A DNA stretch of 32,750 bases, from positions 1 to 32,750 of the forward strand of contig JAJEAL010000112.1 in the NCBI GenBank assembly GCA_022822785.1, read 5' to 3'. The translations under genes and the position numbers were made by a program. Below, one piece after another: positions 163-19,800 of this stretch. The notes beneath the pieces are model-generated. The model was not told the DNA's origin, ran no database searches, and saw only the letters and a program-made list of their open reading frames with translations. The first letter of the stretch is position 1, and the number at the start of each line of letters is the position of its first letter. Source of the DNA: Candidatus Poribacteria bacterium. Its GTDB lineage: Bacteria > Poribacteria > WGA-4E > PCPOR2b.

Positions 163-2481
163 TCAAGGTTTGGCTAGAGTTTTCCATGCTCGATCGTAGT
201 TTCTTATTATCTCGTCCAAGCCGATTTCAGCATCGCTCGCCGATTCGTGAGTTGCTTCTCCGCTTTCTTCTTTTCGCATGGTAATTATCTGGGGTGTCAA
301 CATTGCGGCGATGTCTGCGGGTAATTGAACTCCTGTTATCTGCTCAAAACCTTCAACGCTTCCGTAATCGTTACGAAATGAAGCGATGATATTCAGTCCC
401 ATATTTTTGGCATTCGTTAGGTCCATTCTTGCGTTTCCCCATTCTTTCAGGTGTAACCGCGCCACTGCCCGCCCAATATAAGATTCAGCAAGGTCAGGTT
501 TCCGCTGTATCGCCCTGTTATAATCTTCAATCGCACGGTCATACTCGCCTTGTTTAGTGTAAGCATTACCACGATTGTTATAAGCCTCTGCAAGATCCGG
601 TTTGTGTTCTATCGCTTTGGTATAGTCTTGGATGGCACGGTCATAATCCCCTTTTTCCCCGTAAGCAATCCCACGATTGTAATGTGCCTCGACAGAATCA
701 GGCTTTAGTACTATCGCTTTGTCATAGTCTGCGATAGCACGGTCAACCTCGCCTTTGTTCCGGTAAGCCGCACCGCGATTGCTGTAAGGTTCGGCATAAT
801 CTGGTTCCAGTGCTATCGCTTTGGTGCAATCTTTGATGGCACGGTCATAATCTCCTTTATTGCGGTAAGCCGCACCGCGATTGTTATAGGCTATGGCATA
901 ATTGGGATTCAGTTTTATTGCCTCGTTAAAGTCATCAATAGCACGATTGTAATCACCCTTATCGCGGTAGACAATCCCACGATTGCTATAAGCATTGGCA
1001 AAATCCGGTCTTAGTGTTATGGACTTGTCATAGTCTTCAATGGCTCGGTCAAACAACCCTTTATTATGGTAAGCAATACCGAGATTATTATAGGCATTGG
1101 CATAATTGGGATTCAACTCAATTGCTTTGTCAAAGTCTGTAATAGCTAAGTCAATTTTGCCCTGTTTGCTGTAAACAACACCACGATTGTTATAAGCATT
1201 GGCATAATTGGGATTCAACTCAATTGCTTTATCACAATCTGCAACGGCTAAGTCAAAATCACCTTTATCACCATAAGTCTTACCTCGATTGCTGTAGGCG
1301 TTGGCGTAATTAGGGTTTAGCTGTATTGCTTTGTCAAAGTCTATGATGGCATGGTCAAAATCGCCTTTGCTGTGGTACGCCGCCCCACGATTGTTATAGG
1401 GCTCAGCATCATTGGGATTCAACTCAATTGCTTTGTCAAAGTCCGTAATAGCACGGTCAAAATCGTTTTTATCACTACAAGCCTTACCTCGGTTATTATA
1501 GGCACCGGCATAATTAGGATTAAGCCGTATCGCTTTGTCAAAATCTTCAATGGCTAAGTCAAAATCACCTTTATTGCTGTAAATAGCCCCACGATTACTA
1601 TAGGCACCAACATCATCAGGATTGAGTCGTATTGCTTTGTCAAAATCTTCAATGGCTAAGTCATGCTCGTCTATATCCTTGTAAGCAGTACCACGATTGT
1701 TATAGACTGAGGAAAGTTCTAGATTGCGATCTAAGGCATCGGTATAATGCTGAACGGCTTCTGTACACGCTTTTCGTTTTTCTTTTAATGTCCTCGCTGC
1801 ATCCGCTTTATTTTGGGAGGCGAGCCCGCTATCAAAATCTCTGTAAGCTAACCAATTGTCTCTCTGACTTCTAATAAAGCCATGGATGTCGTTGTAGATA
1901 GTTTTGAGAGATATTTCGTCTGGAAGATTTTCTCGGAGGTGTTGTAATATGAGGAGTTTAAGGTCTTTTGGTATACAGATTACCTTGTATTTCTGTTCAA
2001 TATAACCCTTGGGAGGTTCAACGAATACGCTCTTCTGGGCACAGACGCGAATTTCTGGAGTTTGCGGGTGTCTCAGCATCTTTTTTATTTTCTCGGTTTT
2101 CCGCAAGATAATAACCCGGCCGCATTTAGTCGGAGACCCGTAACAGGCGAAAAAGAGGGCAATATTGTAATCAGTCGTAAAATCAATTAGGTTGGTTTTA
2201 CCTCCGTAGTGTTGGAGGTCGGTGAGAATTTCAAAATCGCTTTTTTCGTTTTCTGCATACTCCCTAGCATCTGTTATAATTCCGGATTGAATCTCCCTTA
2301 TATCAGAGTATTTCACCTTAACTGCGTCAAGTTCACGCCAGAGGTTTGAGGAGATCTTTTCATTACATTCAGGTTCACCTCGGAAGATGTAGGTGCCATC
2401 TGCCGATTTCTCCTTTATATCGTCAATGATGTCTTGAACCGTGCGTGGCGTATCATTTGAGGTGTTAGATTGATTTGACAT
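163..2481 (-). CDS. FRG-domain protein with about 13 tandem TPRs
   Basis: The 772-aa product starts at ATG 2481 with AAAGGAG about five bases upstream. Residues about 25-135 match the FRG domain: YIFRGE at 31-36 and QHYGGKTNLIDFTTD near 90-104, followed by NIALFFAC at 106-113. Residues about 258-700 are thirteen 34-residue tetratricopeptide repeats. Twelve are near-identical, of the type NPNYANAYNNRG...GDFDRAIxDFDKAI; the last is degenerate. A 70-residue tail without repeats follows. No signal peptide or membrane segment is visible, so it is probably cytosolic. FRG is a domain of unknown biochemical role, often fused to other modules. TPR arrays bind proteins, so this may be a sensor or scaffold for the upstream methyltransferase and helicase. 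It is the last gene of the leftward island, 123 bp after the methyltransferase stop, and an IS element abuts its 3' end. Function is inferred from context only. Confidence 0.85.
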   Translation of the reverse strand: MSNQSNTSNDTPRTVQDIIDDIKEKSADGTYIFRGEPECNEKISSNLWRELDAVKVKYSDIREIQSGIITDAREYAENEKSDFEILTDLQHYGGKTNLIDFTTDYNIALFFACYGSPTKCGRVIILRKTEKIKKMLRHPQTPEIRVCAQKSVFVEPPKGYIEQKYKVICIPKDLKLLILQHLRENLPDEISLKTIYNDIHGFIRSQRDNWLAYRDFDSGLASQNKADAARTLKEKRKACTEAVQHYTDALDRNLELSSVYNNRGTAYKDIDEHDLAIEDFDKAIRLNPDDVGAYSNRGAIYSNKGDFDLAIEDFDKAIRLNPNYAGAYNNRGKACSDKNDFDRAITDFDKAIELNPNDAEPYNNRGAAYHSKGDFDHAIIDFDKAIQLNPNYANAYSNRGKTYGDKGDFDLAVADCDKAIELNPNYANAYNNRGVVYSKQGKIDLAITDFDKAIELNPNYANAYNNLGIAYHNKGLFDRAIEDYDKSITLRPDFANAYSNRGIVYRDKGDYNRAIDDFNEAIKLNPNYAIAYNNRGAAYRNKGDYDRAIKDCTKAIALEPDYAEPYSNRGAAYRNKGEVDRAIADYDKAIVLKPDSVEAHYNRGIAYGEKGDYDRAIQDYTKAIEHKPDLAEAYNNRGNAYTKQGEYDRAIEDYNRAIQRKPDLAESYIGRAVARLHLKEWGNARMDLTNAKNMGLNIIASFRNDYGSVEGFEQITGVQLPADIAAMLTPQIITMRKEESGEATHESASDAEIGLDEIIRNYDRAWKTLAKP
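382..1710 (-). repeat. Tandem 102-bp repeats encoding the TPR array
   Basis: About thirteen 102-bp units lie head to tail inside the FRG-TPR gene, recognisable by recurring ccacgattgttataggc and tttgtcaaagtc words at 102-bp spacing. Similarity between units is high at the DNA level, which suggests recent duplication or gene conversion and a potential for copy-number change. Confidence 0.85.
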
Positions 2482-2523
2482 TTTTACTCCTTTTTCTCCA
2501 TACTGGCAATTCCCTCATTGTCA

Positions 2524-2612
2524 GAATCGCTGATTCGCGCGGATTCAGGGATTACACGGATTGAAAAAATCCGCGCTATCCGCTTAATCCGTCTAATCCG
2601 TGATTCAGACAT
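2524..2612 (-). repeat. Palindromic ACGGATTA-type intergenic repeat
   Basis: On the minus strand this stretch is a run of related words: TCACGGATTAGACGGATTAA, GCGGAT, CGGATT-TTTTC-AATCCG (a small hairpin) and TGAATCCGCGCG. It supplies the stop codon of the methyltransferase gene (TGA at 2605-2607, inside TCTGAATCACGG). A related, more diverged copy in the same orientation lies near 13050-13097. Confidence 0.7.
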
Positions 2613-5600
2613 TTTCCGCTTCTTCCACAATGTCAGTCTCATCAACATCAAGACCGTATAAGAAGTATACTATCTGATCAATCTCTTTTTCAAGTTTGGA
2701 TACATCGGCGTCCGGATCGGTGCGTTTGGCGTCGAGGATCTGATCGACAAGTTCAATAATTGGTTCTTGTTCTTCAGGTGACACATCAGGAACCGGCAAC
2801 TTTTTCCAATCATCAGGATATAGGTGGATATTGCTGCGGCGATTTGCCCTCAAGAAATCACGAGCGGCAGTAGAGTTCATAACGCCGATCAAGAATTTCA
2901 CAGCAAAACGACGACTAGTCTCTTCAAGTTCTTCCCGCGCGGGCAAATCCGGACGGTACGGTGTTTCGTCATGATAGCGCGTCTGCTTTTTGATAGATCT
3001 GTTACGAACCTCTGTCAAGCTATACCAAGGAAGAAAACCTACGCTACTTTCTGTAAAATGCAATCGACAATCGTCATAACAAGCCTTTGGATCCGGCCCG
3101 GGACTACGCTGAACGAGTATTTTTTCATCAACTTTATATAGTTCAGGAAACGTCGGACGGCTAAACAAATTAGGAGCTCGTTCCGTTCCCCACTCTAACC
3201 ATTTATTGATAGCAGGAAGCCACTTCGCAAGGTGTTTACCTTCTACAAATGGTTTCGGATGATACTCATCCTCTACGTCTGACACTAAATCTCTTAACTC
3301 AAATTCCCCTGGTGCTTTTTTTTCGTGAGCATGGACAACCATTCCCTTTGTGATGTAGCAAATTTCGTCTAGGGTTACCGTTAGGATTGACAAAGATTGA
3401 AAATCAGTATCTTCCGGGAAAAAGACACGATAGCTTAATTCATGCTGTTCGTTAGTTGGCAATAAATTGACCGCACCAAATTCGGGATCATGAACACGGC
3501 GTTCTGGCTTTTGATGACTACCATCTGCCTTTTGAAACAGATAGGTGACGTTATGAACCCCCGCCTCAAAGATTTTAATCTTACTCAAGAAGTCTAGTCG
3601 TAAGATTCGACTATTTTTCAAAAACCAGTCTTGTGACTTCTGGGCATACTTTGAATGACAATAGGCATCCGAGACAATGAGCGTAGTAAAGCCGCCGGGC
3701 TTGAGCAGCTTATAGCTGCGCTCAATGAACGGAATATACAGATCCCACTTTTCCCAAAGAGTTTCATACTGGTTGCTATCTTCAATTTTCTGGCGCATTT
3801 TGAGGTGTTCATCACCTGAATCCGCCCTGACATAAGGCGGATTGCCAATTGTAATATCAAATCCTTTCCTAACCCCAAACATCCACTCTGGATCAAAGAA
3901 ACCAGCAGAAGCATTCTGATCATAGGGGTCCCAATAGGCGATTTTGCGAGCATCGTCAAAGCTGAGGTCAAATTTTTTCTTGCGCCCTTTATACTTTTTC
4001 TGTTCCACTTCCCGCAACTGCTTGCGGTGTTTCGGATTGGGAAGTTGAGCAATTTTTCGTTCTATTTCCCGTTGTTGGTGCTCCATCCATTTTTCTTTTT
4101 CACCTTCCAATTCCGCTTCCAACTGTTCCCGACGCTCGTCCTCCCGCTCTTCGAGATCAAGTTTTTCCCCTCGATTGTTTGTAAGGAAATGCTTTTCACG
4201 AATTCCCTCAATTTCTCTGGTTAATTGCTGTATAGCATCCTCTTGAAGCAACAATCTGGTTTCGGATAATTGCAAGCCGATTAGCGTATTCGCTGCAATA
4301 AAACGGGTCTCCAGATTCGGCAGCGGCTTAATTCCAAAGTTGTCTGCGGCTTTGCTATTCGGTTCCTGCTCAATGGCAAGAGAAATAAAAAAACGAAGTT
4401 TGGCAATTTGGCACGCAATCGGTTGAATATCCACACCGAAGATGCTATTTTGGATCAGATACAATTTCCGTCCAAAGTCCGAATCGCGGTAACGCTCGAA
4501 AGTATTGCTGATTTCTACTAGTTCGTCCTCTCGCGTTTGTTGATTTGAGATCTTGAAAGCCGCCTGTGCCCGCTTTCCGGCACGGTCTCGCTGTAACTGC
4601 TCCCACCGGCTGTTATCCGGATCTAACCGCCGCAGTGCGAGGGTCAGTTTGTGAAGGACACCCATCGGAAAAGCACCGGAACCGACCGCCGGATCCAATA
4701 TCTTTAGTTCTGAAATTGCCCGCACAATTCCGTCGGTCTCATCGTCATCAAACCATTCGTTTGCATCGTCAAACACTTGTGCATATTCGAAAAGATAGCG
4801 CAACCGCTCGTCCCAAAACTTCGTATCTTCGTCCGTCGGCGGCACCTGCTGTGCTAGTATTGCTACTAACGCCTCTTCCACCATGTAGTCCACGATGGGG
4901 CGCGGGGTATAGTAGGAGCCGGTCTGTTTCCGTACTGTCTCACCGGTCTCAGGGTTATATGCGGCGAGCAGGTTTTCAAATACCCTGCCGAGTAGTTCTG
5001 GATCTAATGCGACATCCTGCTCTATCGGCGTGTTTTCCTCAACAGTAAACTTATAGTGATTGAGCAGAGGAATCAAACCGCGGTCCTTGTCAAAAAAGAG
5101 ACAGTTAGGAATGCTTAATTTCTTGTAGTCTTTATCAGAAAAGCAGTCAATACGGTAGCCTCCGTCTCTTGTCGCCTTGAAGCTGTCGAGGCAATCGAAT
5201 AAGCCACCGTTGATAAACGGCGTTTGGGCAAACAGTTCCAGTAGTTTATCAGGGTTGTGCATCTGATCCTTATAGCGATAACGTGAAAAATTGCGATGGT
5301 CTGGGTTCCTCTCTTTGCTAAATCCACGCTTCTCACCCTCGGCGTTCTCTATCTCGGTGTTCAGTGTGGCAAAAAACAGGTTCTGTAGTACGGCACGGTA
5401 GTAGGAATCACCGGCCTCACGGTCATAGTCTTTCAGTAAGGGGGAGACTTGTATCTCATTGAAAAGTTCATCGGCAACCAATCCTTTCTCTTTGATGAAC
5501 CAGACAAACAACAAGCGCGTGATTAAGCGGATGACGTGCTCCTCCGGATCTACAGTGCGATTTTTGTCCGTCGGAAACTTCCCCTCAGCTACCGCCCATT

Positions 5601-6321
5601 CAAACCAAGCGAACAGTTCCCGGTAGAATTTCTTGTTGAGCTCCTCGGTATCCAGTCGGGCAAGCCACGCCGCGAGCAATCCATCGAAGTTTTCCGGTTG
5701 CTTGTTGGCGTCCATCCACTTCTCGCATTCGTCCAACGAAAGTTCATACAGAATCTCTCTATGCGCTGGGTGTGGGTTATTTAGGCGAATGTCCTTGATT
5801 AGGCTGACCTGTTCCAGCACGTCGAGATTTGGGTCGCGTTTGTGTTGACGGCGACCAACAAAGCCGATGGTCAAACGGTCTTGAACACGAAAGAACACCA
5901 CAGTCGCAAGGGGGAGCCGTTTGTTGACCTCTCGTGTAAACTGGGCGTATTTGCTCCGGGAGTAGTCTTTATCTTTTAATTCGACAGCACAGAAAACAAA
6001 ACTCTGTATAAGTCCCCCGTCGAAGGTTCTTGACTCCAAGCGGTCTGGCTGACTGTTAGCAATTTCATCGCTCCCAACTTGAGATACCAATTCTATTGAT
6101 TTGGCATTCTTGCGGAATTCTTGTTCGGTCTTGGTGTTTTCGTTTTCAGCCGGATGTTCCTGAATAAAGTTATCCACCGTTTCCAGAAGTTCCTCAGTGA
6201 GTGGCGCGTGGTAGTCTAGCACCTCAAGTAGGTTGTTTGAGGTTTCCAAAAGATCGCCATCAATCATCCCCGCCAAGGCGGATTCAATTTCTTGCTTCTT
6301 GCTGATTTCTTCGTTGTTCAT
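2605..6321 (-). CDS. N6-adenine DNA methyltransferase, Eco57I / type IIG-like, with N-terminal extra domain
   Basis: The 1238-aa product carries the class I SAM-binding motif DPAVGSG (residues 543-549), the preceding GSYYTPRPIVDYM segment (468-480) and the amino-adenine catalytic motif NPPY (827-830). It should therefore transfer methyl groups to adenine N6 in DNA. A charged, probably coiled-coil insertion spans about 700-780. A TaqI/Eco57I-like target recognition region probably occupies about 990-1180. Residues about 95-200 form a separate module (VELKDKDYSR at 113-122, FVGRRQHKRDP near 153-163, LIKDIRLNNPHPAH near 174-187). This could be a degenerate nuclease or DNA-binding domain, but I cannot identify catalytic residues with confidence. 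The start ATG has AGGAA 8 bases upstream. It lies 201 bp downstream of the PLD-helicase gene, its likely partner. The length fits type IIG or DrmMI-like enzymes. The lack of an obvious nuclease suggests that cleavage, if any, is done by the partner. Confidence 0.9.
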   Translation of the reverse strand: MNNEEISKKQEIESALAGMIDGDLLETSNNLLEVLDYHAPLTEELLETVDNFIQEHPAENENTKTEQEFRKNAKSIELVSQVGSDEIANSQPDRLESRTFDGGLIQSFVFCAVELKDKDYSRSKYAQFTREVNKRLPLATVVFFRVQDRLTIGFVGRRQHKRDPNLDVLEQVSLIKDIRLNNPHPAHREILYELSLDECEKWMDANKQPENFDGLLAAWLARLDTEELNKKFYRELFAWFEWAVAEGKFPTDKNRTVDPEEHVIRLITRLLFVWFIKEKGLVADELFNEIQVSPLLKDYDREAGDSYYRAVLQNLFFATLNTEIENAEGEKRGFSKERNPDHRNFSRYRYKDQMHNPDKLLELFAQTPFINGGLFDCLDSFKATRDGGYRIDCFSDKDYKKLSIPNCLFFDKDRGLIPLLNHYKFTVEENTPIEQDVALDPELLGRVFENLLAAYNPETGETVRKQTGSYYTPRPIVDYMVEEALVAILAQQVPPTDEDTKFWDERLRYLFEYAQVFDDANEWFDDDETDGIVRAISELKILDPAVGSGAFPMGVLHKLTLALRRLDPDNSRWEQLQRDRAGKRAQAAFKISNQQTREDELVEISNTFERYRDSDFGRKLYLIQNSIFGVDIQPIACQIAKLRFFISLAIEQEPNSKAADNFGIKPLPNLETRFIAANTLIGLQLSETRLLLQEDAIQQLTREIEGIREKHFLTNNRGEKLDLEEREDERREQLEAELEGEKEKWMEHQQREIERKIAQLPNPKHRKQLREVEQKKYKGRKKKFDLSFDDARKIAYWDPYDQNASAGFFDPEWMFGVRKGFDITIGNPPYVRADSGDEHLKMRQKIEDSNQYETLWEKWDLYIPFIERSYKLLKPGGFTTLIVSDAYCHSKYAQKSQDWFLKNSRILRLDFLSKIKIFEAGVHNVTYLFQKADGSHQKPERRVHDPEFGAVNLLPTNEQHELSYRVFFPEDTDFQSLSILTVTLDEICYITKGMVVHAHEKKAPGEFELRDLVSDVEDEYHPKPFVEGKHLAKWLPAINKWLEWGTERAPNLFSRPTFPELYKVDEKILVQRSPGPDPKACYDDCRLHFTESSVGFLPWYSLTEVRNRSIKKQTRYHDETPYRPDLPAREELEETSRRFAVKFLIGVMNSTAARDFLRANRRSNIHLYPDDWKKLPVPDVSPEEQEPIIELVDQILDAKRTDPDADVSKLEKEIDQIVYFLYGLDVDETDIVEEAENV

Positions 6322-6365
6322 CTGTTTCGTTCCTGTTTGTTATGCAACTGAAGGGAGCTTATGAA

Positions 6366-6445
6366 ATTCGGTAATCTTCAAACGATGTCCGGTGCGGTTG
6401 CAAACCGCACCTACCGGGCCTGGGGCACATCTAGAATTACCGATT
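6366..6445. repeat. Small inverted-repeat element with central GTAG hairpin
   Basis: TCGGTAAT at 6368-6375 and ATTACCGA at 6436-6443 form an 8-bp perfect inverted repeat around a hairpin. The hairpin is GTGCGGTT (6392-6399), loop GCA, AACCGCAC (6403-6410). On the minus strand GTAG (6411-6414) directly precedes the stem. The rest of the 6322-6522 spacer shows no gene. Confidence 0.65.
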
Positions 6446-6522
6446 TATTTTTTACAACCTCATACAGTTTGCGGGGCGGGATCACAATCTAACAGATCGT
6501 GGTACAAAAAACTATCTACTTG

Positions 6523-9500
6523 CTATGACTGTGGGGTTGTGATGACTAGCCATGTCACCAGCTCAAAATCGCTGGCATCTCTGGGAGTTGCAGATCTCGG
6601 AGTTAGTTTTAAGTCTCGTGGACCGCCACGCTTCAGATTTCTGGTTTGCGTTGTTGTATGCGCCCTGCTGATGTGAGCGATGACCGCTTTCAACAGTTTG
6701 TTGTAGAGCGTCATGTTCTCGCCGTTTTGGGTGTCGCTGTCAAACTGGATGCACAGGTCATGTAACGGATCGATCTTACCGGCCGCCGCCGATTCAAACA
6801 GATCGAGCACCTGTCGGGTGTTTGCACAACCGTAGCGGATGTCACCGGTGTTGCGGATATAGACCGCATAAAAGGGGTGGATGGGACTCGCTGTTTTTCT
6901 CTGTATATCCGTGCTAGCGTTCCGTTGGCGGAGAAAAAAGATGACACCCGTTTCCATCGGCCGGTCTTCATCGTGGGTGACCGCATACACGCCGTTGGGG
7001 GTCGCTTCCAATTTTCTTTTGTTGTCTTCCAGATACCGCAACAGTTGGGTGAAGAAGTAGTCGAGCGTAAAATCGCTCAGCACAACCCCGTCGGAGAGGT
7101 CGTCGAAGTCTAGCACCTCTTCGCGCAGCTGCTTCAGTTGCTGGTCACGGAAATTCAGTTCCATCTGGGCTTGTTCGTATGCCGATTCGTTCAATGGGTC
7201 CTCACTGCCGGTTGCGGCGGCGTCCGCGAGTGCCATGCGCGCCTCGACACGACTTTGCAAGCGCAGATATACCTCCATATCTTCGGTGGGCCAATAGTTA
7301 ATCATTCGCACCGAGAGGTTGCGGCTGCCGATACGGTCGATACGACCGAAACGTTGGATAATACGCACCGGATTCCAGTGGATGTCGTAGTTCAGCACCG
7401 TGTCGCAATCCTGTAGATTTTGCCCCTCCGATATGCAATCGGTGGCGATGAGCAGGTCAATTTCATCGCCATTATTGTCAGCGCGGCCCCGGGCTCGTGG
7501 TGCGAAATTGGTCAGGATGGCGTTGAAGTTGTTTGGACGGGATTGGGTGCGCGTCACGTCGCCGGAGACCATCGCCACCTTCAGGTTCAATTCCGCTGCC
7601 AGATTCGACAGGTTGTCATAGAGGTAATCCGCCGTGTCCTTGAAGGTGGTGAATACCAGCAGCTTGCGGTTAATCTCCCCGTCCCTGTCGGTTGGGGGGT
7701 GTGCTGCCTTGTCGCGAATATGCGCCTTAATCGCTTGCAGTTTGCCATCTCGCTCAGGCGTAATCCCTTTGACGCTCTCCAACGCCTTATCCAACGTCCT
7801 TTTGTCCTTTATGAGATCCTTTTTCCAGCGGACGCAATCCAATTCTCCCAAGTGATAGGGGTGGCGCGCCTTATTTACGAGAAACTCCTCATCGTCTTCG
7901 TCGTCCTCCGGTAGGATGTCGGTTTCTACTAGACGGTCAGTTTCTGTTTCCGGCATCCCCTGGTTTTGTTCGTAGCGATTAATCTTTTCCAACAAGGTGT
8001 CAATTTTGCCGATTGTGCGTTGGAGCGTTTCTGTGAGGGAATGTGCGGAGCTCTCCAAACGCTTGAGAAAGTTGGTCTGCATCATCCCAATCAGGAACTT
8101 CTCACGGTCCAACTGGTTGAAACGGAAGTCCTGTTTCTCTTTTGCTAATCGCTGTTTTGCTTCTTCACCGATAACGTAACTGGACGGCGTGTAGACAGAC
8201 AGGGAGAATTTCTCTATCTGATCCGCCAAGTATTTATAGGAGAGTGCGCCGTCTAGGTCAGTGGGTGGGTGATGGTTTTCCGGTTTCAGCTGTTCGGGAA
8301 ACTCGCCGATTCTGTCGATTTCGTCCGCGTAAAAATTCTCAATGTGCCGCCGAGAGCGAGCGATAGAAACGCCGCCAAGCAGCTGGAAGAAATCGGCTCC
8401 CAATTCATTCAGTAACTTCGACTTATCTCTGCGGCCACCCGCATCCGGGTTGTCCTCCCACGCCTTAAACGTCTTTTGTGCCTGCCCCAGCAACGCGCGG
8501 ATATTACTGATTCCCAAACTTTTCTGGAAGACCTCTTCGCGCTTTCCGGTCATCAGGTAAATCTGATTCCGTAGGTCAATGAGGGACGTATTGACCGGCG
8601 TCGCTGAAAGCATCAGCACCTTCGTCTGGGCACCCTCCTTGATAACCTCCTCCAACAGTCGTGTGTAACGACTGTGACGGATGATATTACCGGCATCATC
8701 AAGGGTGGGTTTGGTGTCGTTACGGAAGTTGTGCGATTCGTCGATCACCACCAAGTCAAAGTTGCTCCAATTAAAGCCTGCCAAATCGGTGCCGTCGGCA
8801 TCGCCTTCGTAACGGGATAGGTCGGTATGTGATAAAAGTGAGTAACCGAATTTGTCCCCATCAAAAGGGTTGTTGCGCTGGCTGTAATACACTGGATACA
8901 GGGCCCAATTTTCGCGCAGTTTCTTGGGACACAACACCAGCACACGCTCATTTCTCAATTCAAAGAACTTGATCACTGCCAACGCTGTGTAGGTTTTGCC
9001 CAACCCCACGCTATCGGCGAGGATGCAGCCGTTGTGCCGTAACAGCCGGGCAATAACGCTTTTTACACCATCTTTCTGGAAGGCGTACAACGTATCCCAA
9101 ATTTTTGTGTCGTATAGATGCGTATCCTCTATTGTCTGCTCGTTGTTCATGCGGGTCTCTAATTCATCCCGGAACAGCTCGTAAAGGGTCTTGTAATAGA
9201 TGAACTCTGGCCCCTGATCGTCCCCCAGCTTCTTTAACCTAGCGATTACCTGTTCTTTTACATCTTCGACCCGCTCTTTGTCATTCCAGACATCATCAAA
9301 CCACGCTTTCAGGTCGCCGCGGTCTTGGTCGTCCTCCACCTCAAGATTGAGTTCGATGTTATTGTTGGACTGACCTAATCCGAGTCCCTGCACGGTAAAA
9401 TTGGAGCTGCCCATGATGGCTTTGTTTGCGTCGTTGTTGGCGATGTGATACATTTTCCCGTGGAGCAGATTTGATTGCCGGGTTGATTTAATCTCAACCT

Positions 9501-9822
9501 TCTGGTCTATCCAGTCAGCGCATTCTTTAGCAATGGGTCTTTGTTGAAGCGGCTTGTCAAGCTGCAGACCCTCGTCCTCAATTTTGAAGGCTTTCGGATC
9601 GGTGTTCCTTGTGTCGAGATTTTTGATAAAGTCGGGTTCGCCGAACAGGAATCGAAGTCCGTCAATTTTCCACAGATGCGCTTTGAGCGCTTCAAAGGCG
9701 TGGATTGTGAAGTACGCCGATACCACCGAGAGCGATGAACCGTTTTCGATGTTGGCTTTCAGAAACTCGCCGACCGTGCCTCGGTCGTGATTGTCTCGGA
9801 TTCGGGTGTTACGGTTTGACAT
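6523..9822 (-). CDS. PLD-nuclease / SNF2-family helicase fusion
   Basis: In this 1099-aa product, residues about 15-180 are a phospholipase D-like domain with HGKMYH (121-126) and GSSNFT (138-143), the conserved core of PLD nucleases. Residues about 240-960 are a SNF2/RapA-like superfamily 2 helicase: Walker A SVGLGKT (271-277), DESH (361-364), SATP (406-409), and C-terminal QRFGRIDRIGSRN as motif VI. One PLD half-motif implies dimerisation if catalytic. The enzyme should translocate on DNA and may cleave it. The adjacent adenine methyltransferase suggests the pair makes a restriction-like complex with nuclease/motor and methylation/recognition on separate chains. DISARM DrmD helicases and type ISP enzymes are the nearest named comparisons, but DrmA and DrmB are not present. 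Its start lies just inside the spacer carrying a repeat element whose edge supplies TATAAT on this strand. The domain call is firm; the biological role is inferred. Confidence 0.9.
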   Translation of the reverse strand: MSNRNTRIRDNHDRGTVGEFLKANIENGSSLSVVSAYFTIHAFEALKAHLWKIDGLRFLFGEPDFIKNLDTRNTDPKAFKIEDEGLQLDKPLQQRPIAKECADWIDQKVEIKSTRQSNLLHGKMYHIANNDANKAIMGSSNFTVQGLGLGQSNNNIELNLEVEDDQDRGDLKAWFDDVWNDKERVEDVKEQVIARLKKLGDDQGPEFIYYKTLYELFRDELETRMNNEQTIEDTHLYDTKIWDTLYAFQKDGVKSVIARLLRHNGCILADSVGLGKTYTALAVIKFFELRNERVLVLCPKKLRENWALYPVYYSQRNNPFDGDKFGYSLLSHTDLSRYEGDADGTDLAGFNWSNFDLVVIDESHNFRNDTKPTLDDAGNIIRHSRYTRLLEEVIKEGAQTKVLMLSATPVNTSLIDLRNQIYLMTGKREEVFQKSLGISNIRALLGQAQKTFKAWEDNPDAGGRRDKSKLLNELGADFFQLLGGVSIARSRRHIENFYADEIDRIGEFPEQLKPENHHPPTDLDGALSYKYLADQIEKFSLSVYTPSSYVIGEEAKQRLAKEKQDFRFNQLDREKFLIGMMQTNFLKRLESSAHSLTETLQRTIGKIDTLLEKINRYEQNQGMPETETDRLVETDILPEDDEDDEEFLVNKARHPYHLGELDCVRWKKDLIKDKRTLDKALESVKGITPERDGKLQAIKAHIRDKAAHPPTDRDGEINRKLLVFTTFKDTADYLYDNLSNLAAELNLKVAMVSGDVTRTQSRPNNFNAILTNFAPRARGRADNNGDEIDLLIATDCISEGQNLQDCDTVLNYDIHWNPVRIIQRFGRIDRIGSRNLSVRMINYWPTEDMEVYLRLQSRVEARMALADAAATGSEDPLNESAYEQAQMELNFRDQQLKQLREEVLDFDDLSDGVVLSDFTLDYFFTQLLRYLEDNKRKLEATPNGVYAVTHDEDRPMETGVIFFLRQRNASTDIQRKTASPIHPFYAVYIRNTGDIRYGCANTRQVLDLFESAAAGKIDPLHDLCIQFDSDTQNGENMTLYNKLLKAVIAHISRAHTTTQTRNLKRGGPRDLKLTPRSATPRDASDFELVTWLVITTPQS

Positions 9823-9853
9823 AATTTATACCTATCTCAGATTGTTTTGGTTC

Positions 9854-9859
9854 ATTATA
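9854..9859 (-). promoter_or_regulatory. Candidate -10 box for the helicase gene at a repeat-element edge
   Basis: The minus strand reads TATAAT at 9859-9854, about 32 bases before the helicase ATG at 9822. It falls on the terminal inverted repeat of the element at 9856-10006. The matching -35 position reads GTCTAT, which is poor, so promoter activity is only a possibility. Confidence 0.3.
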
Positions 9860-10006
9860 GTAAATCCTAAAAATAAATAGACGCTTTCGCTCTCCGTGTC
9901 CTGTCCCGACTCGTCGGGATGCGGTGCGGTTGGAAACCGCACCTACCGGGCCGGGGGGCAATGCAGTTCGGTTTGGAGTGTCTCATTAATTCTGAAATCT
10001 ACTATA
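9856..10006. repeat. MITE-like element E1 with 30-bp imperfect terminal inverted repeats and central GTAG hairpin
   Basis: The left end reads TATAGTAAATCCTAAAAATA, continuing AATAGACGCT. The right end, reverse-complemented, reads TATAGTAGATTTCAGAATTA, continuing ATGAGACACT. They match at about 21 of 30 positions. In the centre is the hairpin GTGCGGTT (9924-9931)/AACCGCAC (9935-9942), with GTAG on the minus strand at 9943-9946. A second small hairpin, CCCGA-CTCG-TCGGG, lies at 9905-9918. No ORF is credible inside, so the element is non-autonomous if mobile. Confidence 0.65.
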
Positions 10007-10027
10007 GTTCATTGGTTCATTTCCCCA

Positions 10028-10155
10028 AGTTGGCTCATATAAAAAGAAAGTGCAAGTCCCGATTCATCGAGGATTCCGCTACGCGGAACACGAAGATAAA
10101 CCGAGTTTTGAAGAAAAAACTCGGTTTCTGTTGCACCATTTCTTAACATGAGCGC
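10028..10155 (+). repeat. parA-flanking direct repeat, copy A
   Basis: Copy A shares its start (gttggctcatataaaaag) and end (tcggtttctgttgcacc ... aacatgagcg) with copy B at 11164-11260, in the same orientation. It contains a 12-bp perfect hairpin: AAACCGAGTTTT (10098-10109) and AAAACTCGGTTT (10116-10127). Copy A carries about 28 extra bases near 10053-10082. Its right edge covers the last codons and stop of the parA gene. Confidence 0.75.
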
Positions 10156-11147
10156 CCAAGTTTAATTCTTGCGGTTATCTTCTCAGCCAAAGCCTTGAAA
10201 TCGTCGCGGGCGGTATTGGCGGCAGCAGCGTGGCTGCCAATTGCGCCATCGGCCGGGGTGAGATGAAACATAGGCTTGCGTGCTTCTTGTGCCATCGGCA
10301 CCAGACTTCGGTAGTGCTTGACAGTCGCGAGGGCGTGTTCTTCATCTTGTGCCGGTGTCGCGGGGTAAGGCCCATCGTTATCGTCCAGTAGGTTTCGGGC
10401 ATATTCCTCCGGCATACGGTTGACCCACGTGTCGTATGCCGTAATGGGACGCCCCAAACGAATGCCGTGCTGCTGTACCACATAGCCAATGGGTTGAATC
10501 AACCCATCAGGCATACATAGGTCAGGGATGGGGTTACGGTCATATCTATCTTTCCACCCATTTCGCCAATCTCGTAGCGTCGCCCCGAGGGTACGCAGTC
10601 CTTGAAGTGAAATCAGATCTGTTCCAAGCGGAACGATAATGCAATCCGTCGCAACCAGTACCGCTCTATTCAAAGCCCCTAGGTTGGGACCCACATCTAC
10701 CAAGACAATTTCAGCACCACTATCATTTACTGCTGTTTGTAAAATACGCCATAGTGCTGAAATCACACGGAAAGCACGTGGACGACGGTCAAGACACGCT
10801 TGCCATTGGATCGAAAACTCATCCTCAGTAGCAGATAACGAGAAATCCCCTACGATGAGGCTCAACTTCGGTACTATCTGCTCTAAGTAAGGTTGCTCAA
10901 TGTCTCCGGTCCCGTCCAAAAGCGGTTGGAGGGCATTATAGATGGTTTTCCTCTCTCCATCGTCAGGCCACAGTATTTCTAGGCGTTCCTCATTGATAAA
11001 CATGCGGGTGAGGTTTGCCTGCGGATCGAGGTCACAAGCAAGTACTTGATAATCAAGATCGGATAGCATCCACGCTAGATGATAGACCAAAGATGTCTTG
11101 CCAACGCCGCTTTTATTGTTAAAAAAGGTTAAAATTGGAACAGACAT
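10143..11147 (-). CDS. ParA/MinD-type P-loop ATPase
   Basis: The product is 334 aa from the preferred start, an ATG at 11147. That ATG has AGGAG at 11154-11158 with six-base spacing. An ATG two codons earlier (11153) touches the ribosome binding site and is unlikely. The deviant Walker A, KSGVGKTS, lies at residues 12-19. CDLDPQANLT and LVDVGPNLGALNRAVL follow as the Walker A' and Walker B/switch regions of the ParA family (known to dimerise on ATP and bind DNA non-specifically). No ParB or centromere gene lies beside it, so a plain partition role is doubtful. A regulatory or assembly ATPase for the flanking TPR, helicase and methyltransferase genes fits better, but is inference. The 3' end lies inside a repeat, and a second copy of that repeat sits 17 bp upstream of the start. 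Confidence 0.85.
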   Translation of the reverse strand: MSVPILTFFNNKSGVGKTSLVYHLAWMLSDLDYQVLACDLDPQANLTRMFINEERLEILWPDDGERKTIYNALQPLLDGTGDIEQPYLEQIVPKLSLIVGDFSLSATEDEFSIQWQACLDRRPRAFRVISALWRILQTAVNDSGAEIVLVDVGPNLGALNRAVLVATDCIIVPLGTDLISLQGLRTLGATLRDWRNGWKDRYDRNPIPDLCMPDGLIQPIGYVVQQHGIRLGRPITAYDTWVNRMPEEYARNLLDDNDGPYPATPAQDEEHALATVKHYRSLVPMAQEARKPMFHLTPADGAIGSHAAAANTARDDFKALAEKITARIKLGRSC

Positions 11148-11163
11148 TTTCATCTCCTCTCAG

Positions 11164-11260
11164 GGTTGGTTCATATAATAAGAGAGCGCGAAACACGAAG
11201 AGAAATCGAGTTTTTTAGGAAAAACTCGGTTTCTGTCGCACGATTGTCGAACATGAGCGT
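11164..11260 (+). repeat. parA-flanking direct repeat, copy B
   Basis: This copy lies just upstream of parA. It is similar to copy A (10028-10155), including cacgaag, the GAGTTTT...AAAACTC hairpin near 11208-11229, cggtttctgt and aacatgagcg. Direct orientation means recombination between the copies would delete parA. Confidence 0.75.
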
Positions 11261-11338
11261 CAGGGTTTGTGCACTGCTTTTATCGTGGCAAGATCGTGTC
11301 AGATATTCTGGGGCGACGTTGTTGGTATCTTCAAAACG

Positions 11339-11356
11339 CGCAATGAATTGCGCTAC
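11339..11356 (-). repeat. GTAG hairpin (REP-like), CGCAAT type
   Basis: On the minus strand GTAG directly precedes the perfect stem CGCAAT-TC-ATTGCG. It sits in the spacer between the TPR gene stop (11379) and repeat B. Confidence 0.6.
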
Positions 11357-11378
11357 TACAAACCCAAGGGTGTAATTC

Positions 11379-12797
11379 CTATTGTGTTTCGCTGTTTTCT
11401 GCATCTTGCAGTGGTTCATGGCACCGGGCTAATTCTTTGTCTTGGAAAATATCGTCCCACCATTCCGGGTACTCCAGTGGTTCAGGCATATAAAATAAGG
11501 AAGCCTGTCTGTCATATTCTTTTATAACCGTTGTTTGTCGATCAATAGCCTTCTGATATGCTTTAACAGCGTCTTGGTAACGTCCGATTCTGTGCAACGC
11601 CTTCCCAAGACGATAGTGAAAATCAGGATATTCATAAGTATGTCTTGCACGCTCATACCAGAGGAGTGCTAGCTCATAACGCCCAACTTCGTCATTGGCA
11701 ACAGCGAGGTCGTAATACACCGCATCGTAATGTGAATCTGCCACAATAGCACTATGATAACATTCAATAGCTTGTATGTAATTTCCATCAGCAAAGTTCT
11801 GTTTTCCCAAATCGTGGTACGTTTCCGCAAGGTTTCGATGCACTGTTCCTTCTCTCAGATCGTAGAAGTCCCAGTACACATTTTCTACATCGAGGTGTTG
11901 CAGCCTTCCACGTGCTTTGTCCATACGATATATATTACCAAATACAATAGCCTGTTTGAAGGCCTGAATCGCTTCCTCAAACCAACCAGTCCACTGATAC
12001 GCTTTTGCTAATTCGTTATAGGCAGCCGCATAATTGGGCTTAATTCTTACTGCTGTACGATACGCTTCTATTGCCTTTTTGAGAACCTCTTGAATTCGGG
12101 GATGTTTGCCCTGTTTCATTGCCTCAATTTCATCTCTGGTTTCGTCACCATAGTTTTCCTCCAGCGTGATGAAAGGGTTAATCCAACGCGTGTATGCTTC
12201 GCCCAATTCGTAGTATGCCTCGGCACTATCGGGTTGGACCTTAATGAGTTGTTGATAGGTTTTTATGCGTGCCTCTGCAATGCCAAGTGTACCGTCGAAG
12301 TTTATCTGATCTCTGATTTCGTAATCATCGCAATTTTCCATCAACAGAGTGTATATCTGACCAATTTGGTGATAAGCAGCAGCCCAATCATGATCAATTT
12401 CGGCGGCTTGCTTATACCATTCAATAGCCCGCATGTAATCAGATGGAAACTCTAATTCTCCCCACTGGCTTTCTCCAAAATAGTCGAACAGTTCCGCTAA
12501 AGAGCTGCGCGCGTCTGCGTAATCCGGTTGAAGTTCAATCGCTTTTCTGTAAGCCTCTATTGTTCCTTGATAACGCTCAAATACCTCTTCAGTGTAGAGA
12601 TATTCTTCAGTGTTTTCGATTTGCCGTTGGACTAATTCGGAACGACAATGACCTATCTGAAACCACGCTTGGGCGAAATCGGGGTTGAGATCGGTAGCCT
12701 GTTCAAAATAGGATAGGGCATTGGCATAGTATTTGTACTCCATCAAGATCAACCCGTCTCGATAAATTTGTTCGGCTCTGTGTACTATGTTATTCAT
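11379..12797 (-). CDS. Tetratricopeptide-repeat protein
   Basis: In this 472-aa product, about nine TPR units cover nearly the whole length, for example NALSYFEQATDLNPDFAQAW near the N-terminus, AYRKAIELQPDYADARSSL, and AYRTAVRIKPNYAAAYNEL near the middle. The repeats are more diverged than those of the FRG-TPR protein, so this is an older, non-amplified array. There is no signal peptide or transmembrane segment. The ATG at 12797 has AGGAG at 12808-12812 with good spacing. It is the first gene of the leftward island and probably a protein-binding scaffold or adaptor. No enzymatic domain is visible. It could instead be an unrelated TPR gene that happens to sit upstream, since 231 bp with repeats separate it from parA. 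Confidence 0.85.
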   Translation of the reverse strand: MNNIVHRAEQIYRDGLILMEYKYYANALSYFEQATDLNPDFAQAWFQIGHCRSELVQRQIENTEEYLYTEEVFERYQGTIEAYRKAIELQPDYADARSSLAELFDYFGESQWGELEFPSDYMRAIEWYKQAAEIDHDWAAAYHQIGQIYTLLMENCDDYEIRDQINFDGTLGIAEARIKTYQQLIKVQPDSAEAYYELGEAYTRWINPFITLEENYGDETRDEIEAMKQGKHPRIQEVLKKAIEAYRTAVRIKPNYAAAYNELAKAYQWTGWFEEAIQAFKQAIVFGNIYRMDKARGRLQHLDVENVYWDFYDLREGTVHRNLAETYHDLGKQNFADGNYIQAIECYHSAIVADSHYDAVYYDLAVANDEVGRYELALLWYERARHTYEYPDFHYRLGKALHRIGRYQDAVKAYQKAIDRQTTVIKEYDRQASLFYMPEPLEYPEWWDDIFQDKELARCHEPLQDAENSETQ

Positions 12798-12820
12798 CTT
12801 CTAGGCTCCTAAAGTCAAAA

Positions 12821-12845
12821 GGGCAACCACAAGGGTTGCCCCTAC
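12821..12845 (-). repeat. GTAG hairpin (REP-like), GGGCAACC type
   Basis: On the minus strand GTAG (12845-12842) is followed by GGGCAACC, loop CTTGT, GGTTGCCC. It is a perfect 8-bp stem, 24 bp upstream of the TPR gene start. Confidence 0.65.
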
Positions 12846-13256
12846 AGTTTTCTTTGTGTTTAGCACTTTCTTTTTGCACGAGCCACTATAAATAACCACA
12901 TTCACTAAGATAACCTATCAGGGGTGTTCTTGTTTTATCACGCACCGACCCAATGCTACACACATGTCGCCCTGCTGGGGCTGCGTGGTTGATTGAACTA
13001 ATGAACCCTATACATTACAATCTGCTTTCACGCATCGCGTTTTACGCATTCTTATCCGCGTTATCCGCTTCATCTGTTTAATCCGTTATTCGGATCGATT
13101 CGCCGCTCTTCCCACGGGTTGAGGGCTTTGTAGGAGGGGCTTCCTATACCTGATGATAAACCGATATCACTCTTCCCCTGCTTGTTCAGCATAAGCGAAA
13201 TCCCAAACTGGCGGGACGGGCGAATAAGGCGGCTAGCCTTCCAGTCAACTTGGATC
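12846..13256. other. Spacer without a clear gene
   Basis: The spacer contains a diverged copy of the ACGGATTA-type repeat (about 13050-13097) in the same orientation as the one at 2524-2612. On the minus strand at 13070-13258 there is a 62-codon open frame containing SPSYKALNPWEERRIDPNN. It has no convincing ribosome binding site and runs into the repeat, so I treat it as a possible gene remnant rather than a gene. I see nothing definite between 12846 and 13040. Confidence 0.5.
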
Positions 13257-13520
13257 AATGGTGGATTTTAGAATTAATGAGACACTCCAAATCGGTGCGT
13301 CCCGATAAATCGGGATCCCGACCTGTCGGGAGAAACAGCGCCTACCGGGGACGGAAAAATCCGGGCTATCACCCGGTAGGTGCGGTTTCTAACCGCACCG
13401 CATCTCCCGATTCTCGGGATTCTCGATGCAATCGGAACCGACGAGTCCCCGATTGTATCGGGACAGGCGGGGCAGGACATGGGGGGCGAAAGTGTCTATC
13501 TGTTTTTATGATTCACTAAA
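13257..13520. repeat. MITE-like element E2, opposite orientation to E1, central GTAG hairpin
   Basis: The left end is AATGGTGGATTTTAGAATTA followed by ATGAGACACTCC. The right end, reverse-complemented, is TTTAGTGAATCATAAAAACA followed by GATAGACACTTTCGC. Both ends match those of E1 (9856-10006) but in swapped order. The centre holds GTAG (13376-13379) plus GTGCGGTT-TCT-AACCGCAC (13380-13398). Smaller palindromes such as CCCGAT-AA-ATCGGG near 13301 add further secondary structure. Confidence 0.65.
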
Positions 13521-13661
13521 GATAATTTTCCTGTCGACAAGTAGGTGTATTCAGTATATCATACGAACTCATATTGTATCTACGATTATTATCTCGCGGA
13601 TAAGGTAAGGAAGAATTGACGTTATCCAACTTCCAATCCACCACTATACAGGAGGAGAACC

Positions 13662-16814: not shown

Positions 16815-19800
16815 CTAAGGTGTTGGTGACTCCAAAATCAGCATGCCCAAATCGCTCGGAAACACCGAACCTGCCTCTGGTATCTGAGCTGCCCAATAAA
16901 TCGCTTGATTGTTGGATCGGTGAATAACAAAGTTAAAACCGATACGATTCTGTTGGCTCATTTTCAGGGGATGAAATCCGCGGAGCACAGGGAAAAACGG
17001 AATACGGGCCTCAATCACATAGTAATTTGTCCGTTGTCGTACCGCAACGTCGAGGTTCGCCGCTTGGTAGTTCGGAATAAATTCCGGTGCGCCCTGTCCG
17101 ATATAGGGGCGGTCACCGTGGAAGCCGCCGCCCCGTGGACAGATCCAGATGACGTAACGGTTTGGATCTTTCTCCGTCTGTAAATAATTTGGTTTTTTGA
17201 CCGCGTCCGGTTCCAAATCTATATGCAGCTCTAATGCGTCTGCGCCGCGATAATATTCGATAACATCCGGCACAACAACCTCCTCATCATAAACCTGTGC
17301 AAGCAGATACAGGTTATCGCGGTCCCACTGCAGCCACAAAAGCCCGTCATCTTGGGCGGTCTTGATGACCTTCTCAAGGGGCCAACCGTCTTCATGTCCA
17401 TCAATCAGCACAGGGCGATCTGTATACGGCACCCAAGCCACAGAGTTCGCCCGACAGCTCGCACTGATTTCGATGTTAGTTTCGCCGGTATCTGTGAGTG
17501 CATCCTCATAGATTGCTCTGACAGTGTCACCGCCAACCAAGCCAAGGACCTCTGCTGTCAAGGTGGCAGAATCGTTGGCTGACTCATCAATTATTGATCG
17601 CCCATACTGTGTGGGAATCCGTCCCTGAAATATAGGTGAATTTGCATTCTCCTCATATAAAACGATGGACGTCTCCTGTGCTGCCGTTACAATTTTTAGG
17701 GCTGTCGATTCAATCTTGAACGAGTCACGATTCAAATCTGAGTCTTCTAGGCGAAAATGGAGGGGAACGCCTACATTAAAATGCTGAATTGGGCTGCCGT
17801 CTCCACGCGTAATTGCGAGATACCCACGAGTGCCTCTGTTGGTATACGCGAAATCTTCGACAACGGGATAATTCACCCCTAGAAAATTCGGTGTATAAGT
17901 TGCCCGTATCTCTTCGTCACCTTGGACGTCTAGCGTTTCATCTGCAACAGGGGTTGTGCCGTATCGCGTCGGAACAGCGCCGGTAAAAATTCCTTCCGTT
18001 CCCAACCTTTTGCCGAGGATAACTTCGACCCTATCGCCTGTTTTGTCCCCAGACACCATAATTTTAACTTCATCCGCTTTGACGATTGTGGTGAGAAATA
18101 GATCTTCGAGCCAGAAGTAGATTGTTTGACCGGCATTAAAGCTGCCTAATTCATGGACCGATGCGAAATCTTCTCGCGGGACTGATGTAAAGCTAGTACG
18201 AGCTGCGTCGGTGCTTAATAACGAATCAACGATGTGGGCATCAACAATGCGCAGGACCCCCGCACTACTCCCCAACACCAGCGCTTGGACCTGAGTGTGA
18301 ACCTCGGTTTCGCCGGTGATAGTAATCGCATCGATATATGCAATGGTGATGACCTCCTTATCTGTGATTTGCAGGATTTCATCCGTGACGATTGCTGCGC
18401 CGTTTTCAATAGTTAACGGTTCCCCTTTTTGAGTCCATAGGTCGCCCTCAAAGACCCCGCTATTGATTGATGTTTCCCGCAAAATAACCTGAACCTGATC
18501 GGCAAAGACATTGCCCATGACTGTTACATGCGTAGTATCTGGTGTCGTAGGAGACAAATTTAGGTCATTATCCCTCAACCGAACCCTCAGCTTTTCACCG
18601 ATATTGAAACTTCCAGTGCCCACACGGGAACCACTGATAACAATCCCACTGTCTGCACTGTAGATTTCCAGCTCACTTGTATCCCCTGTTTCAACAGAGA
18701 GTCTCACTTGGACTGGTACTTGTGTGGCTCCTGTATTCTGTAACGCATCGATATAACTGCATGTCACAACACCGTTGCCCTGCACCTGCAAGATATCGTC
18801 GTTCGGAATAGGACTGTCACCGTAAACGGTTTTGACTTCACCACGAAAGATGTCAACACTGTCTGCCGTTTTAACCAAGGTTATCTCGGTACTATCCCGA
18901 ACCATGTTTTCCGTAAAATCGGTTTCAAACAGTTGTGCAACTGCGGTTGTGGTGTTAAGATCGGCATCTTGGAGTTCCAAAATCAATGTGTCACCAGCTT
19001 GCAGTCCTGATATTTCTATATTCTGAACCAAGGCATAATCAAAGTTTTTCTTGTTATGGACTCTGAGTGATCCGGTTATGCCGACATGTGCTTCACACGT
19101 ATCATAAAACTCGACATCCGTTTTGCCAGTAGATTGTAATTCATCGAGATAAATGGCACGGACCTGCTCCGTGCCTTGTACTTGCAGGATGCCATCGTTC
19201 TCCTGACGCTGTGTGTCATAAGCAGTTTGGATGAAACCGAAGAAAGTGCCTTCTACAGGGAAGATACGGGTCCCTTCCTCCATAGATTGGAACAGCTGCA
19301 CCGTTTCTCGGTCCTTCAGCGTGTCTCCAACGAGCGTGATTTCGACGAACTCAGCCGTGATGTCCGCGTCGCGGAGTCGGAAGTAGAGCCTTTCACCCGC
19401 GTTAAAGCTCTCCAGACGGGTAACATAATTGGCTTTGAGAATATCGAGCACCCCATCTATACCAGCGCTGACTTGCGCTGTATCGGTGAGGGTAACTTGT
19501 GTGTTGCCAGAACCGCTGAGGGCATCAATGTAACTGACGGTCACAATCTCTTTGCCTGTAACTTCAAGTATATTGTTGGATGGATCCGCGCTTGTTGCAT
19601 ACACGGTGGTAAATTGCCCTATGAATTGACCTGGAACATCGTGTGCCTCTTTTAGCGTGAGTTGATATCGGTCGTTGAGCTGATTTCCGGTCAGTAGCAC
19701 ATCAACGGTCAACCGCCGATCCGCATCACGATTCAGATCGGTATCACGCAGCACCACAGCGATCCGGCTGCCCGTGCTGAAAAATTTCTGATTGTTCAAG

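Follow-up and report, generated by a model that had tools for sequence, protein, structure and literature searches.

Contig JAJEAL010000112.1, one entire contig of a Candidatus Poribacteria metagenome-assembled genome and, at 32,750 nucleotides, the window analyzed here, encodes a PLD-SNF2 helicase and an Eco57I methyltransferase that are best read as the functional core of a predicted ATP-dependent restriction-modification (R-M)-like pair, followed by a gene for a protein with an FRG domain and tetratricopeptide repeats (TPRs). We consider it fairly probable, judging from sequence, that the locus is a two-gene R-M-like system with a nicotinamide adenine dinucleotide (NAD)-consuming, probably abortive backup effector. 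A sequence-only reading of the window had proposed five genes on one strand as a candidate defense system. The five open reading frames (ORFs) lie exactly where that reading placed them, each on the minus strand (163–2481, 2605–6321, 6523–9822, 10143–11153, and 11379–12797), and its five domain assignments hold in Pfam. Three of them are the main subject here:

163–2481, minus strand: FRG-TPR protein of 772 amino acids, candidate NAD-consuming backup effector on a TPR chassis (Pfam FRG; position in the downstream slot; C-terminal cap).
2605–6321, minus strand: Eco57I-type N6-adenine methyltransferase of 1238 amino acids, with a predicted hypervariable target-recognition region at residues ∼740–1230 (Pfam Eco57I, 2.2e-29; identity profile).
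6523–9822, minus strand: PLD (HKD) nuclease–SNF2 helicase of 1099 amino acids, candidate restriction/translocation subunit (Pfam PLDc_2, SNF2-rel_dom and Helicase_C; PADLOC C3a139).

The helicase matches Pfam PLDc_2 (7.2e-9), SNF2-rel_dom, and Helicase_C and, near its full length, the PADLOC model C3a139 'HKD+Snf2' (2e-107). Its motifs are intact, namely the PLD HxK...GSSN...E, Walker A, DESH, SAT, and QRFGRIDR, and a comparison of catalytic motifs found the PLD residues H, K, S, N, and E retained across the Poribacteria loci. The protein is conserved evenly along its length (70–93% among orthologs), and relatives, at some level, occur in 53 of 59 related genomes. The gene occupies a fixed chromosomal place in many genomes: beside an enolase gene in the genus of the window and, in another family, beside one conserved gene block. 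The methyltransferase has intact DPAxGSG and NPPY motifs, and its best PADLOC matches are type IIG. The Pfam and PADLOC matches and the intact motifs bear out the earlier assignment of an R-M- or DISARM-like helicase with an N-terminal PLD domain and an N6-adenine methyltransferase.

An identity profile across loci shows that the catalytic part of the methyltransferase is mostly 60–95% identical to that of the copy in the window, with identity of about 8–25% in most loci at residues ∼740–1230; even beside a helicase that is 93% identical, it is 10–26% over most of this region. In another species, the recognition half is 80–98% identical over much of its length and the middle of the protein only ∼45%; no such pattern was seen in the helicase. 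This predicted recognition region is thus hypervariable and mosaic, which is the signature of an R-M specificity subunit and of recognition-domain exchange, and the pair combines a variable specificity region with a conserved catalytic partner, as R-M systems in the broad sense do. A nuclease within the N-terminus of the methyltransferase was considered and found to lack support, as the sole ExK-like motif seen there is not conserved, no conserved nuclease motif was noticed, and the modeled domain had no significant match in the PDB. Since the methyltransferase offers neither a conserved motif nor a significant structural match, the PLD domain of the helicase is the likely nuclease of the system.

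The two genes are found together well beyond the window. For the two closest helicase classes, the methyltransferase is encoded within 6 kb of the helicase at 45 of 53 loci; at least four of the remaining eight are located at contig ends, and at two the methyltransferase lies slightly beyond that distance. Nine near-complete genomes gave a pairing of helicase and methyltransferase in 9/9 cases versus 0.16 expected. Cyanobacteria and Bacteroidota also have the pair with its HKD motif intact, as seen in Planktothrix, Calothrix, Nostoc, Microcystis, and Parabacteroides plasmids.

Other cassettes were observed between the two genes. At locus L047 (11495–13493), the insert is an AAA_21/AAA_15 ATPase and DUF4276 pair, which we take to resemble PARIS; a pair of AAA ATPase and DUF4276 genes is also present within the Aeromonas plasmid island L088. 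A Microcystis plasmid (L116, 11116–12583) has a SMODS nucleotidyltransferase with a SLATT_4 effector, a CBASS-like arrangement, between methyltransferase and helicase. Many loci of another family, such as L044 (11528–12345), have a Gp49/HigB-like toxin and an HI1420-type antidote gene at this place, both with Pfam scores slightly under the cut-offs.

Downstream of the methyltransferase lies a slot for a third gene. FRG and TIR_2 genes were mapped across 59 genomes, and the slot counts are lower bounds drawn from related genomes and not independent events: at least 35 of 87 methyltransferase loci are followed by an FRG or TIR_2 gene in the same orientation, no more than 5.5 kb downstream (19 FRG, 22 TIR), and among the matches listed none near these loci lies on the opposite strand and one lies upstream (uniform expectation 0.19). 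A permutation test with FRG alone in the nine genomes found the gene at 5/34 methyltransferases versus 0.58 expected, which is suggestive only. The FRG and TIR domains in the slot proteins score over the curated Pfam cut-offs, and these proteins have in common a TPR array and a C-terminal cap (FRNxYxxxxxFEQxxGxxLPEDIAxLLT), with either FRG or TIR at the N-terminus. The protein in the window has the FRG domain (1.8e-13, plus TPRs, in the window scan; 1.6e-14 on the N-terminal 250 amino acids alone), the TPRs, and the cap. A TIR gene also follows the pair in the Parabacteroides plasmid (L091), where a 304-amino-acid protein with no Pfam match (11930–12844) is encoded between the methyltransferase and the TIR gene.

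These arrangements bear on whether the island is functionally coupled at all. An R-M-like pair and independent FRG, ParA, and TPR genes could have gathered by chance in a hot spot, and ParA and TPR do vary between loci, as do the HigBA-like toxin-antitoxin and AAA+DUF4276 cassettes placed between helicase and methyltransferase elsewhere. However, the strand and side specificity of FRG and TIR (at least 35 same-strand downstream, none opposite, and one upstream, among the matches listed) and a C-terminal cap common to otherwise different effectors speak against chance gathering, and we hold it to be quite unlikely. The strand-aware test of FRG and TIR over 59 genomes is decisive in our assessment: as judged from gene arrangement, the FRG-TPR gene is a genuine partner of the methyltransferase and not a chance neighbor. 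FRG has been described as an ADP-ribosyltransferase (ART)-superfamily domain that might be an NADase (PMC9503650). The FRG and TIR heads are probably two unrelated NAD-consuming domains. Within the FRG-TPR gene, positions 524–1653 of the window form a near-tandem array of 102-bp DNA repeats, each unit corresponding to 34 amino acids or one TPR, so that the length of the array may vary through recombination.

Several observations weigh against an R-M-like pair with a backup effector. The helicase is absent within 6 kb of 45 of 90 methyltransferase loci, suggesting that the methyltransferase also acts without it, and, among the matches listed, a downstream FRG or TIR gene is missing from over half of the methyltransferase loci, a share that contig ends inflate. 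Co-transcription of the island genes is not evident, as the gaps between them are 120–320 bp. The structural models gave no significant match: the FRG model (predicted local distance difference test (pLDDT) score of 83) has ADP-ribosyltransferases as its top PDB matches, which are non-significant (best E 0.57), and the model that gave no significant match for the methyltransferase N-terminal domain has a pLDDT of 76.

The methyltransferase loci that lack a helicase invite another explanation, in which methyltransferase and TPR effector are the system, the effector is the restriction arm that answers missing methylated sites with NAD depletion, and the helicase is optional. Several of these loci retain an FRG- or TIR-TPR gene downstream. 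Moreover, the slot protein has a further C-terminal DNA-recognition tail in five loci (L021, L057, L107, L109, and L111), identified by Pfam as TaqI_C in 4/5 tails and in the fifth 76% identical to one of those four, so that the effector could read DNA itself. However, the FRG-TPR protein of the window has no such tail, the helicase is rarely found away from the methyltransferase, and at many loci no effector was detected beside the pair. We regard this explanation as unlikely and prefer the helicase-methyltransferase pair as the core, with the TPR protein as its partner.

Profile searches, including PADLOC, gave no full match to a named system, as the sequence-only reading had stated, and DrmA, DrmB, PglZ, and HsdS, which it had reported missing, are indeed absent from the window. 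One likeness is to type-2 BREX-related (BR) systems, overlapping Hma, in which a Swi2/Snf2 helicase with an N-terminal HKD nuclease works with an N6-adenine methyltransferase (PMC12839542); however, the DUF499 ATPase and the DUF3780 gene are absent from the window by Pfam, and the methyltransferase has no DUF1156 match. Class 1 DISARM (DrmD, DrmMI, DrmA, DrmB, and DrmC) has related helicase and methyltransferase families, but DrmA, DrmB, and DrmC are not among the scanned ORFs of the window, where the PLD domain is fused to the helicase. The helicase scores 150 bits on the DrmD model against a cut-off of 610, and the methyltransferase scores weakly on the DrmMI and PglX models (BREX PglX, 49 against a cut-off of 500); BREX would further call for PglZ and BrxC, and both are absent from the window. 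ARMADA (PMC12458937) pairs a helicase with a PglX-like methyltransferase, but neither its YprA-family helicase nor its GajB-like helicase is present in the window. Type ISP enzymes likewise combine methyltransferase, recognition region, and helicase/translocase, but they do so in a single chain of nuclease, helicase, methyltransferase, and target-recognition domain, whereas here there are two genes; and type ISP and IIG enzymes use a PD-(D/E)xK/Mrr nuclease in place of the PLD domain found here, where no nuclease motif was seen to be conserved in the methyltransferase. C3a139 has the HKD nuclease and Snf2 helicase in common with the window but is a single-protein model, and the helicase falls below the curated cut-off of the single-gene PLD-helicase anti-phage protein NF042964 (145 bits versus 1100).

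The scores on DrmD and, weakly, on DrmMI and PglX could also be those of a decayed or partial DISARM- or BREX-related system, its remaining genes lying elsewhere or lost. They are far under the curated cut-offs, however, and the window lacks DrmA, DrmB, PglZ, and a DUF499 gene, while both genes of the pair are intact and have been kept in dozens of genomes and in other phyla; we consider decay very improbable. As far as its sequence tells, the system of the window is outside DISARM, BREX, type-2 BR, ARMADA, type ISP, and the single-gene PLD-helicase family, failing at least one defining feature of each. No named system was found that unites a C3a139-type helicase, a methyltransferase of the family in the window, and an FRG/TIR-TPR gene, and a search of the literature on FRG+TPR or TIR+R-M combinations found no description of an FRG/TIR-TPR protein with an R-M-like unit. 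Backup effectors have been reported beside BREX cores and related ones, and these were nucleases (PMC12839542). The idea of a backup effector is thus not new; what is new is the pairing of an R-M-like core with an exchangeable FRG/TIR-TPR protein.

A plasmid relative that has lost the HKD motif was also found. Its helicase is 38–39% identical over the full length, in enterobacterial and archaeal plasmids, but the HKD residues are unconserved where aligned, the methyltransferase is of a different type, and there is a second helicase gene. At loci L087, L088, L089, and L090 (Enterobacterales, Aeromonas, and a methanogen), the helicase belongs to a plasmid island that also encodes DUF4391, a site-specific methyltransferase, and a DEAD/DEAH helicase and for which we know of no name; a literature search on DUF4391 found no defense account.

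The remaining features of the island lie upstream of the helicase:

10143–11153, minus strand: ParA-family ATPase of 336 amino acids, predicted passenger (Pfam AAA_31/ParA, 8e-25).
11379–12797, minus strand: TPR-only protein of 472 amino acids, a rare accessory of uncertain relevance (Pfam, TPR repeats only).
9918–10053, no strand: inverted-repeat cluster, left copies flanking the ParA-TPR segment (pairs I1, I2, and I5 with 12863–13404).
12863–13404, no strand: inverted-repeat cluster, right copies flanking the ParA-TPR segment (members of a dispersed family).

ParA was considered as a component of the system and rejected, as its usual partner is a Schlafen/AlbA_2 gene: a gene for an SLFN_AlbA_2-HATPase protein lies directly upstream of ParA in 14 of 15 close homologs. 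Only the ParA of the window lacks it, and no trace of the SLFN_AlbA_2 gene was found in the window. ParA adjoins the helicase in 3 loci only, and by its gene neighborhoods it is a passenger. The upstream TPR gene is almost unique: 24 relatives yielded a single homolog, located immediately upstream of a gene for a methyltransferase of the family in the window, and its homologs are too few for a call. The five-gene island as one system therefore does not stand; among the partners that had been proposed for the core, FRG-TPR is upheld as a conserved kind of neighbor and ParA is not, the earlier reading having itself named recurrence of helicase and methyltransferase without such neighbors as counting against it. 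Schlafen-type genes are known neighbors of BREX-related loci (PMC12839542), and the Parabacteroides pair, too, has one immediately upstream, so that a Schlafen-ParA cassette is a plausible optional module whose main gene has been lost in the window. In several genomes, the Schlafen-ParA pair was also observed at a single conserved position in the chromosome, adjacent to three genes whose products are probably exported (L098, 7702–15337; L096, L099–L101, L103, and L104).

Inverted copies of dispersed repeats lie on either side of the ParA-TPR segment. Their family includes the palindrome GGTGCGGTT-N3-AACCGCACC (for example, at 13372–13404 of the window), which has 91 copies genome-wide against 0 for the reversed control. 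The repeats reported at the border are real, yet they are dispersed over the entire genome and uninformative, and were dropped as a sign of transfer. The insertion sequence (IS) border claimed alongside them was dropped as well: no transposase domain was detected among the window ORFs scanned with Pfam, and the intergenic stretch 12798–13661 holds just two short featureless ORFs and short dispersed repeats. For a recently transferred, IS-bordered locus the evidence is weak, the helicase being found at one and the same chromosomal position in several genomes. The left edge of the island is the contig end, as the window is a whole contig, and is no boundary. Beyond the island, Pfam identifies MR_MLE/enolase, MoeA, and MobA ORFs, and adjoining the MobA and MoeA genes is an ORF (16815–22802) for a 1995-amino-acid protein with F5/8 type C and CBM9-like domains. 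Overall, the sequence-only reading was partly confirmed as an observation and partly supported as an interpretation.

We propose that the methyltransferase, which combines the modification activity with the DNA-recognition region, would methylate adenine in host target sites. On meeting unmodified DNA, it would recruit or activate the helicase through a putative contact between the two proteins, and the helicase would translocate and cut with its N-terminal PLD nuclease, giving restriction and, presumably, protection against phage. The TPR chassis with its FRG head (in the window) or TIR head (in other loci) is most likely a second-line effector that would consume NAD and halt or kill the cell once the first line fails, and ParA and the upstream TPR gene would be passengers or optional add-ons. 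The R-M-like pair thus has a partner of its own kind, a dedicated TPR chassis that bears either of two unrelated, probable NAD-consuming heads and, in some loci, a DNA-recognition tail. If the coupling is real, sequence-specific DNA self-marking would be tied to metabolic suicide in a two- or three-gene unit, here in sponge-associated members of Poribacteria, a phylum with, to our knowledge, no cultured member.

A bolder reading, which we hold to be doubtful, is an R-M-like system with NAD depletion as the restriction outcome: the methyltransferase would mark self, and the FRG/TIR-TPR protein, sometimes TaqI-tailed, would sense unmodified DNA and kill or arrest the cell, the helicase being optional.

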